A stretch of DNA of 64,000 bases from NCBI RefSeq assembly GCF_000613845.1, contig NZ_BAJT01000001.1:124001-188000 (forward strand). The letters run 5' to 3'. The position numbers and the translations under genes are program-made. This document shows positions 18,741 to 21,505 of the stretch, in pieces. Below the pieces are notes generated by a model. It was not told where the DNA came from and ran no database searches. It saw only the letters and a program-made list of their open reading frames with translations. Position 1 is the first letter of the stretch. Every line of letters begins with the position of its first letter. This stretch comes from Asaia astilbis JCM 15831 (GTDB lineage Bacteria > Pseudomonadota > Alphaproteobacteria > Acetobacterales > Acetobacteraceae).

Positions 18741-19054
18741 TGGTGTCCGCGGCGGGATTCGAACCCACGGCCCCAGGATTCATCCCACTTCGACTTTCGC
18801 CGCCGAAGCCTCCGGCTGGAGGCTTCGTTCGTGGTCTGGACTGTCTCTTCACCATAGTCTGGCTCGCCAGACGACAGGTGCTGCCCGTACAGTCTCTACA
18901 CCTTCGCCTCTCTTTTCAGAAAAGCGCTTGGCTCGGGATTGGCACGCTTGCGCCAGAGCGTTCCCCGAATTTGAGCAGATCCACCACGCCGTTTCCGAAC
19001 GAGGCGCCCAATTATCTAGGAATCCTGTGCTCTATCCTGCTGAGCTACGCGGAC
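18741..19054 (-). tRNA. tRNA-Arg(CCU), interrupted by a group I intron
   Basis: Mature 77-base tRNA in two exons: 19054-19018 (37 bases) and 18780-18741 (40 bases, with encoded CCA). The acceptor GTCCGCG pairs with CGCGGAC, the D arm is GCTC...GAGC, the T arm has GGGTTCGAATCCC. The anticodon stem is CAGGA/TCCTG around loop TTCCTAA, whose central CCT reads AGG arginine codons. The loop is split after the last anticodon base (position 36) by 237 bases that look like a self-splicing intron; without its removal the gene cannot give a tRNA. All exon junctions follow from pairing alone. Confidence 0.95.
18781..19017 (-). ncRNA. Group I self-splicing intron (IC3-like) in the tRNA-Arg anticodon loop
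   Basis: 237 bases, no reading frame, so no homing endonuclease. The 5' exon ends in U and the intron ends in G, as group I splicing needs. A three-base internal guide GGG pairs with the anticodon CCU, giving the U.G pair at the splice site. Core helices are visible: P4 TCGGG (complement of 18964-18968) with CCCGA (complement of 18933-18937); P7 GACTGT with ACAGTC within the R (18877-18902) and S (18838-18860) segments; and a perfect terminal hairpin at 18805-18826. Similar introns are known in Agrobacterium tRNA-Arg(CCU) and Azoarcus tRNA-Ile(CAU). Confidence 0.93.
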
Positions 19055-19220: not shown

Positions 19221-19396
19221 GCAGGATGGTGGTTTTACTGCGCATTTTCCCCAAGGGGCCATTGTCAGCTAAAACAGTCTCGGCCTTTATCGTCTTCCCT
19301 AAACGTGATCGGGATGTTGAAGTGGGGAATACGTTTCGTAAAAAAACCGAGTTGGGAAATGTGATATAAGGCGTGCAGAAAAGAAAGCGTGAAGTA

Positions 19397-21505
19397 ATGT
19401 TCGATCTGGCCCTCCGTGGCGTTGCAAAAACCGACTCTACCCTGCTGCGTCTGCGACTCATTGGTCGCGTTGAGGCGACAACGCTTACTGGTGAAAGCGT
19501 TCTTCCTGTCGGCGGAAAGACAAAAGGGCTGCTCGCGATACTTGCTTTATCGGATCGCAAGCCTGTTGCCAGATCCCATTTAGCCGAGCTTTTGTGGAGC
19601 CGACGCCCGGACGATCTGGCACGTGCGTCACTGAGGCAGGAAATCCACCGTCTTCTTGATGCCTTGAGCCCGCTTGGCGTCGACGTGATCGATGTGCAGC
19701 GCCATACGCTCGCGCTCAAACCTGCCCTGACCTCGGTAGACGTCGAACGGATTCTCAATGGCGGCAAATCGATCCTGCGCGAATTGCCTGCTCCGAATGA
19801 AGTTCTGCTGAGCGAGCTCAATGGAATCGACCCGGCGTTCAATGAATGGATCGAAGGCCAGAGAGCGCGCCTGAACCGTCACATCTATCAGCTGTTCGAG
19901 AGCGCCCTGCGCACTCAGGTCGATCCCGATACAATCCTTGAGACGGCCGATCATTTGTTGATGCGTGACGGGCTTAACGAGGCGGCCTGGCGCGCGCGTA
20001 TCCAGGCCTGGGTGACCAAAGGGGAATATGCTCAGGCGGCAACTCTGGGCGATCAGGTGGTGCAGCTTTTTCAGGACCAGCTCGGCACAGTTCCTGGCCC
20101 GGCAACGATGGGGCTGGTCCGCGGCCTGCAGGAACGTATCGCCTTCGATTCCTATTCCAAGACGCATCATGGGCAATCCGTCGAGAACGATGCTCGATGC
20201 TCCATGCCGATGCGCGTCCTGAAAACGCCGGACTTTTTTCCCCGATGGAGGAGAGGGGGCTTTCCTCTCTGCTGGTTCACCACCGCGTACTCTGGGCTCA
20301 ATTGCTGTTGCTCCGCTTAAATCCACGGGTGGCGATCACGCTGAGGCATTGGCAGCGGAGTTGACCGAGCGTCTGGAGGTCAAGCTTGTCGGATTGCAGA
20401 CCTTCACGGTGGTGCCTTTCCCTGAAACACCGCTGGGCGATACGGGGCCACTCTTAGGGAATACGCATAACCCCGGCACGGATTACGTCATCTCGGGGCT
20501 GGTTCGGGCAAATTGCCCTCATGATGAGTCGTCTGAAGCTATGTCATCATTCGCCTGCTGAGTTTGCGTCAGGAAGGGAGCGTTGTCTGGGCGGATCGAT
20601 TCGAGCTGCCAAAGGATACGCGCGCGCAGCGGGCCTTGCTTTTCTATGTGATGAAGTCGCTCCAGTGGTCGCTTGTCCTCTCCGAAGGGCAGCGGATGAT
20701 GTCGCGCCCGATTGCCGAGTTGTCCGCTTTCCAGATGGCCATCCGTGCCCTCACTCTTTTGCTGCGCTGTGATGTGACACTCACGGCTGAGCTGGCAGAG
20801 TTGGTGGAGCGCGCCTATCAGTCGGATCAGGAATCGGTTTTCGTTCTTTATGTGCGCTCGCTGATTCGTTTTTTTCTCTATCAGGAAAACTGGACGCGGG
20901 ATTCTCGCGAAGAGATGGAAGAGATTGCCTCCGCAGCTGGATACGTGGCCATTCAGCTGCGGTCCAACCCGCTTGGTGTCTGGCTTTCCATGCTGACGAG
21001 GACCTTCACTCCAGGGCAGCTTGATGAAGCGAAGGCGCTCACGGCCGAATATACAGGCGAGGATGGAGTATTCCCGGCGATTGCGATTTCGCCGTCGATT
21101 CATGCTCTCCGGGCGGTGCAGGCGCTTTTGAGCGAGAACAACAAGGTCGCTCTCGAAGAGATTCAGCAATTCCGGGCTTTGCGGGCGTCTCAGCCCCTCG
21201 CCGTTCTCTCGGAGCCGTTCAGTATCTTCGTGCTTGAAGTGTCCGGTAATGCTGAAGAAGCCCGTCAGGCAGGCGCGGCGTTCGTGAGCCTTTATCCCAG
21301 AAGTGTTGCCGGGGTCCTGTACTATCTTGCTGCCCTGGCGGCACAGGATATGGGGGAGGAAACCGAGCGTGTGAAGCGACATCTTCTCCGTCTGGCACCC
21401 GACATCACGATCGAGGGGGTGTTGTCACGCCACGAATATCTGCCAGCTTCCATGCAGGCATGGCTGCGTGACAAGCTCGAGCGGGTGAATATCCCCAAAG
21501 GTTAA
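19397..21505 (+). CDS. SARP/BTAD-like transcriptional regulator with TPR-like C-terminus (two frameshifts)
   Basis: One regulator of about 700 aa in three frame segments. The N-terminal winged helix has GGKTKGLLAILALS and the recognition region SHLAELLWSRRPDDLARASL; a BTAD-like helical region follows (WVTKGEYAQAATLGDQVV). The middle resembles the TolB-like segment of CadC-type regulators (SIAVAPL, YVISGLV, VVWADRFELP), and the rest is helical and TPR-like. Shift one is at TTTTTTCCCC (20234-20243), one base too many; shift two near 20539, one base too few, where repair reads S-E-A-Y-V-I-I-R-L-L. They cancel, so both ends share a frame. Start ATG 19397 is chosen over GTG 19373; neither has a strong site. 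Target genes unknown. Confidence 0.75.

Follow-up and report, generated by a model that had tools for sequence, protein, structure and literature searches.

One tRNA(Arg) gene split by a group I intron homologue has been listed, in Table 1 of a 2015 paper, for Asaia bogorensis, Acetobacter pasteurianus, Gluconobacter oxydans, Komagataeibacter medellinensis, and Gluconacetobacter diazotrophicus (PMC4596401). These introns share the amino acid of their tRNA with the locus described here, and Asaia bogorensis also shares its genus; they are described there in a footnote, without anatomy or anticodon, and our locus comes from another species, Asaia astilbis JCM 15831. The intron BbgpI of Bartonella bacilliformis, with CCT repeats at its ends, is reported to splice in vivo and to self-splice in vitro (PMC7717549). 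Like other alphaproteobacterial tRNA-Arg(CCU) introns, e.g., that of Agrobacterium, BbgpI agrees with the A. astilbis intron in the tRNA, the site after CCU, the guide region, and the core, whereas length and outer hairpins differ (237 nt in A. astilbis versus 213 to 318 nt among the matches listed). The A. astilbis intron groups with alphaproteobacterial tRNA-Arg(CCU) introns in a tree, Agrobacterium being likened by description, and is an ordinary member of this already known family.

The intron of Azoarcus tRNA-Ile(CAU) is located after U36. It is assigned to subgroup IC3. Compared by description, it likewise uses a guide of three bases, and its anticodon also has U as last base; the guide is GUG for CAU where Asaia has GGG for CCU (PMC6274277). 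The GMG/CNU genotypes that have been studied with fragments of the Azoarcus ribozyme include the combinations GGG/CCU, GUG/CAU, and GCG/CGU (PMC6274277). The tRNA-Leu(UAA) introns of cyanobacteria and plastids are likewise group I introns in a tRNA anticodon loop, but they are spliced after U34 with the guide GAGU; the cyanobacterial copies were likened by description. Host tRNAs for fMet and Ile2 are named in the tRNAscan-SE 2.0 paper (PMC8450103), and a weak search through titles and abstract openings of the open-access literature found no paper on such introns in bacterial tRNA-Thr, -Lys, or -Asn.

An interrupted tRNA-Arg(CCU) gene in Asaia astilbis

The stretch of DNA under study, here called the window, is 64 kb long, and ARAGORN found no tRNA in it at default settings. 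With introns allowed, the program returned a single gene, tRNA-Arg(cct) at complement 18741 to 19054. Its intron of 237 bases follows gene base 37 and so separates U36 from A37. Halves of 37 and 40 bases give a spliced tRNA of 77 bases with an encoded CCA and a seven-base anticodon loop (UUCCUAA), which bears out the canonical 77-base tRNA and the insert between positions 36 and 37 of the initial annotation. As claimed there, the insert follows a U (U36) and ends in G (18781), and a three-base guide GGG lies opposite CCU at 19009 to 19007. Site, exons, and guide were read directly from the DNA. The gene and its intron comprise the following features.

19018 to 19054, minus strand: tRNA-Arg(CCU) 5' exon, 37 nt, ending in the anticodon CCU (ARAGORN and sequence)
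19018 to 19020, minus strand: anticodon CCU, which doubles as the exon strand of P1; its U36 precedes the 5' splice site
18741 to 18780, minus strand: tRNA-Arg(CCU) 3' exon, from A37, CCA encoded
18781 to 19017, minus strand: group I intron of 237 nt with G as its last base (ARAGORN, RF00028, alignment)
19010 to 19012, minus strand: AUU before the guide, can pair with AAU of the 3' exon (P10; read from sequence)
19007 to 19009, minus strand: internal guide GGG, paired to CCU, the pair at the splice site being U.G
18982 to 19006, minus strand: P2 (19006-19000 with 18988-18982) and loop L2 GAAA (18996-18991) (alignment; 3' strand counted by hand)
18973 to 18978, minus strand: P3, 5' strand (alignment structure)
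18964 to 18968, minus strand: P4, 5' strand (alignment structure)
18933 to 18937, minus strand: P4, 3' strand (alignment structure)
18900 to 18932, minus strand: P6 (GCC with GGU) and P6a (RNAalifold and hand-written structure)
18890 to 18894, minus strand: P7, 5' strand, which we take to be the guanosine-binding site (alignment structure)
18881 to 18886, minus strand: P3, 3' strand (alignment structure)
18850 to 18880, minus strand: P8 (18880-18877 with 18853-18850) (alignment structure)
18839 to 18843, minus strand: P7, 3' strand (alignment structure)
18785 to 18834, minus strand: P9 region, CCAC/GUGG (18834-18831 with 18788-18785) (3' GUGG located by counting back by hand from the end of the intron)
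18827 to 18804, minus strand: perfect 10-bp terminal hairpin, enclosed by P9 CCAC/GUGG
18801 to 18792, minus strand: GNRA hairpin, enclosed by P9 CCAC/GUGG

P2 of the window copy contains one U.U mismatch. The P4, P7, and perfect terminal hairpin of the initial annotation are all present, the first two as placed in the alignment structure and the last as the 10-bp hairpin listed above.

The Asaia assembly (3.14 Mb, 88.8% complete) yielded 42 tRNA matches, and ARAGORN reads a tRNA at every one of them (42/42); the Arg anticodons among them are UCU, CCG, and ACG (two genes). An intact tRNA-Arg(CCU), i.e., the second, uninterrupted gene that the initial annotation had considered, was not found among these 42 matches. 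The interrupted copy is the only tRNA-Arg(CCU) found in the genome, whose completeness leaves some room for a second one. Since this gene is missed by a default tRNA search as well as by the curated cut-off of Rfam, a tRNA for AGG can look absent in standard scans.

Over about 7.4 kb, the nearest named relative is Asaia siamensis with 80 to 82% DNA identity, followed by Asaia lannensis and Swaminathania salitolerans. Two frames at 19373 to 21505 of the window separate the tRNA from a DUF3576-leuS pair. The first contains a bacterial transcriptional activator domain (BTAD, 23.9 bits versus a cut-off of 22.1), a Pfam search with the second gave no match, and the two may be one gene split in two.

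Assignment to group I

The Rfam model of group I introns, RF00028, matches the window at 19023 to 18824 over its full length (model positions 1 to 253 of 253) with an E value of 1.7e-7 and 35.5 bits, and at E 0.001 this match is the sole one in the Asaia genome. The score falls short of the gathering score of 50 bits, and a scan of the window at gathering scores reported nothing. As a curated cut-off, the gathering score does not define the class; among the three control genomes with a match, one lies below it as well. In the family of the window, RF00028 matches 39 of 150 genomes at E 0.001, and only 7 of the 150 reach the gathering score. The covariance match exists, albeit below the cut-off, and together with the covarying core and its P3/P7 pseudoknot described below it upholds the group I intron of the initial annotation.

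Folded alone, the window intron is more stable than expected (z = -2.8), none of 200 shuffles being as stable. Its 3' terminal base is the G at 18781, and in the CCU/GGG helix U36, the last base ahead of the 5' splice site, is paired with a G of the guide. The subgroup is probably IC3, whose traits are GNRA loops at L2 and L9 and the lack of a P5abc extension. IC3 introns are described as lacking P5(a-d) (PMC11835236). P5 is short in the introns aligned here. Among the matches listed, loose searches found GAAA near L2 in 134 of 142 introns, and all 142 have a GNRA hairpin close to the 3' end.

Conservation and covariation among tRNA-Arg(CCU) introns

A pattern scan of named genome contigs gave at least 119 stretches. 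At least 142 interrupted tRNA-Arg(CCU) genes were assembled from 28 genes of the window's family, including the window itself, and from 114 of the 119 named stretches listed (L085, L119, L130, L143, and L175 were left out); some genomes are represented twice, and the distinct introns number 135. L130 was rejected as a chance pattern match without a tRNA. Among the matches listed, the insertion site is identical in all 142 genes, and the length ranges from 213 to 318 nt with a median of 230 nt. All 142 resolved introns, that of the window included, contain the guide GGG, which in L013 is located further in, behind a longer P1 loop. The terminal G is likewise found in 142 of 142, but the rule for the 3' splice site demanded a G, so that this count is no independent test. 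In 139 of the listed Arg(CCU) introns, the triplet preceding the guide is ATT (125/139) or ACT (14/139).

For 24 introns, including the window copy and one with masked bases (L114), an alignment (A1) was combined with a hand-written structure containing the P3/P7 pseudoknot, in which 94.2% of 1,147 cells are paired. This conserved core covaries: double changes occur at 22 of 48 pairs and in 135 cells, compared with 42.4 in shuffles, and none of 500 shuffles reached as high a value; sliding the structure by 1 to 3 columns lowers the paired cells to 30 to 48%. RNAalifold found compensatory changes at 39 of 65 pairs in A1. The covarying elements are P2, P3, P8, and the hairpins of P9, whereas P4, P6, and P7 are invariant in A1 and covariation therefore speaks neither for nor against them. 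P6a is one column off in the hand-written structure, and 56% of its cells are paired. A pairing of the guide with the 3' strand of P7 proposed by RNAalifold (columns 1 to 6 with 234 to 239) was rejected as incompatible with P1 and P7; it is contained in the covariance model R1, which was built from the 24 introns. R1 gives the window copy, itself one of the 24, a score of 212.9 bits (E 3.6e-61).

This clade-specific model finds introns in 71 of the first 150 family genomes, compared with the 39 of RF00028 (7 above its cut-off). To 58 of these 71 genomes an Arg(CCU) intron was assigned, in 29 cases by reading the sequence and in the others by model score or matching coordinates. An uninterrupted tRNA-Arg(CCU) site (at most 3 mismatches) is present in 45 of the 150 genomes and in none of the 58 with an assigned intron (0/58); for the 47 with neither intron nor uninterrupted site, divergent arms, incomplete assemblies, and missed introns are possible reasons. 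R1 also matches all six of the other Asaia genomes that were searched, two of which were read by sequence. These relatives, along with the at least 142 genes read by sequence, refute a chance pattern or an assembly artefact, to which we assign a vanishingly small probability.

A further explanation is a decaying gene whose intron no longer splices, the codon AGG being read by another tRNA. By wobble, tRNA-Arg(UCU) could read AGG. Such a tRNA is present in the Asaia genome, and the sub-threshold Rfam score of the intron would also suit decay. However, exons and core motifs agree with the family, low Rfam scores are usual there (39 of 150 genomes at E 0.001, 7 of 150 over the gathering score), and an intact tRNA-Arg(CCU) is absent among the 42 tRNA matches; decay is very improbable. 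Overall, we have high confidence in the best explanation, which places the insert among the group I introns known from alphaproteobacterial tRNA-Arg(CCU) genes.

Proposed splicing

Two-step splicing initiated by guanosine is established chemistry for group I introns. The precursor tRNA would be transcribed from the minus strand, and the intron would fold into the group I core, with the guide GGG paired to the anticodon CCU and U36 held in the U.G pair. Free guanosine bound in P7 would then cut after U36, and the freed anticodon end would attack behind the terminal G at 18781, a step that the P9 region and the pairing of AUU to the exon AAU (P10) would help. Joining of the exon halves would yield a functional tRNA-Arg(CCU). 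To judge by relatives and by general knowledge of group I introns, the Asaia intron probably follows both reaction steps, self-splices, and is active in the cell; this small RNA in a tRNA gene very probably removes itself.

Inheritance within the acetic acid bacteria

An intron tree was calculated for 169 introns with the guide omitted; its bootstrap had not settled, so that all support values are rough. The window intron groups with those of Asaia siamensis, Asaia lannensis, the genome G149 of the same genus, and Swaminathania (100/96), and this Asaia group is nested in 40 rows that all belong to Acetobacteraceae, the named ones being acetic acid bacteria (99/100). The neighbourhood is shared as well: of 53 Acetobacteraceae loci, 29 contain leuS or the adjoining DUF3576 gene, compared with 0 of 61 other named loci among the matches listed (10 of the 61 carry no family name), and 11 of the 24 Acetobacteraceae misses fall within 1.5 kb of the locus end. 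Tree and neighbourhood suggest vertical inheritance within the acetic acid bacteria, in line with the initial annotation. Outside the acetic acid bacteria, the orders are mixed in the intron tree.

That mixing speaks for a rival reading, in which the Asaia intron is a recent mobile arrival by horizontal transfer or homing; in addition, a relative in tRNA-Leu(UAA) of another alphaproteobacterium holds an antisense HNH-like frame, and Paquin et al. reportedly argued in 1999 for horizontal transmission. Against a recent arrival of the window copy stand its place with Asaia and Swaminathania (100/96) inside an all-family clade (99/100), albeit with rough support, and the leuS/DUF3576 neighbourhood with its 29 of 53 versus 0 of 61 listed loci. 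Moreover, none of the four open reading frames of at least 60 amino acids that overlap the gene has a Pfam match at E 0.01; in agreement with the initial annotation, no endonuclease was found in this copy. Recent mobility is accordingly rated as highly unlikely, and vertical inheritance remains our preferred reading. The term "immobile" of the initial annotation can stand for this copy only insofar as Pfam revealed no endonuclease in it; the wider lineage occurs in several different tRNA genes.

The Arg(CCU) intron of Acetobacter nitrogenifigens (L121) does not join the clade formed by the remaining acetic acid bacteria (97/84, rough tree), and leuS was not found within its 8-kb locus; it is a candidate for transfer.

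Hosts and guides in the wider lineage

R1 matches 140 of 299 family genomes, with 54 of 102 genera represented, as well as 49 of 385 genomes in the class sample and 42 of 398 in the phylum sample; the three samples share some genomes, and part of the weak matches disappear under stricter filters. In Proteobacteria, members of the lineage sit in at least nine kinds of tRNA; the 210 introns that were read represent nine tRNA host kinds and four loop registers (after U33, U34, U35, or U36), with a U before the splice site serving as the placing rule, which L205 and L207 may break. As counts of fetched loci and not frequencies, the hosts are Arg(CCU) with 139, Leu(UAA), the commonest after it in the survey, with 39, Thr(GGU) with 10, Lys(UUU) with 9, Lys(CUU) with 4, Leu(CAA) with 4, Arg(UCU) with 2, Thr(CGU) with 2, and Asn(GUU) with 1. 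Left out of the 210 were L205, L206, L207, L079, L231, L233, L245, L273, L274, L276, and L277 as well as Arg rows with N or identical sequence; nine rows had to be placed by hand, as did the guide of L248. In the phylum sample of 47 loci, one without a resolved host, several ambiguous, and some the same as earlier loci, the hosts were read as Arg(CCU), Arg(UCU), Leu(UAA), and CAU tRNAs.

Guides that fit the host exons include GGG, GAGU, GGUC, GCC, GCG, GGAG, and GAC. At least three guide-exon pairs form in 210 of 210 introns, a partly circular result as the guide helped to place the non-Arg splice sites. When placed without the guide, 79 of 84 loci have at least three pairs, whereas 500 permutations gave 52.4 on average and never more than 61 (87 loci examined, 3 unresolved, and 27 tied placings of which the first was taken). 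The fit is not crisp, however: when guide and exon are taken from rows with different loops, 2,696 of 5,298 combinations likewise form at least three pairs, owing to U-rich exons and G.U pairing.

A quick tree placed 97 of 98 Arg(CCU) rows together (SH-aLRT 99). A single clade of all 98 is not rejected (p 0.73), and the constrained tree lies 29.4 log units above the free one, i.e., the free search missed a better-scoring tree; a single Leu(UAA) clade is not rejected either (p 0.37). Repeated entry into one host is not supported, since neither of the single clades is rejected. Independent origins of the Arg(CCU) intron were considered, as free trees imply 2 changes (14 over the nine hosts) with L240 resembling a second origin, and are likewise not supported, the single clade having a p value of 0.73.

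Nine host kinds require at least eight switches. Whether the Asaia intron is the tip of a single lineage that re-aims at tRNAs by rewriting a guide of three to four bases is, in our estimation, evenly balanced. Such re-aiming would fit a spread in which introns enter anticodon loops by reverse splicing and then change their guide, rather than homing. If it is true, the lineage would provide a natural series for testing substrate change in a ribozyme and would parallel in nature the guide/tag sets that have been examined in vitro with the Azoarcus ribozyme. This series of hosts and guides outside the window is more interesting than the window copy itself.

Several minor observations concern individual loci. 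A tRNA-Leu(UAA) gene (L276/L277; G534, contig 76, about 1850 to 2640) contains a 693-nt insert with intron ends resembling those of the lineage and an antisense frame of 154 amino acids (167 between stop codons) in which an HNH-like motif occurs (HNH_3, 20.0 bits versus a cut-off of 24.8); some members of the lineage may home. L205, L207, L206, and L079 are Leu-like tRNAs with odd loops, which appear to have the intron behind C34, a C as base 33, or a loop of eight bases. L245 (G307) appears to be a partial or decayed second copy, with 3' exon-like sequence and no clear 5' exon. Two or three introns of the lineage occur in different tRNAs of the same genome in G024 (L019/L079), G079 (L018/L073), G658 (L236/L237), G421 (L249/L250), G1007 (L284/L324), and G1036 (L318 to L320), the hosts of L079, L319, and L320 being uncertain.
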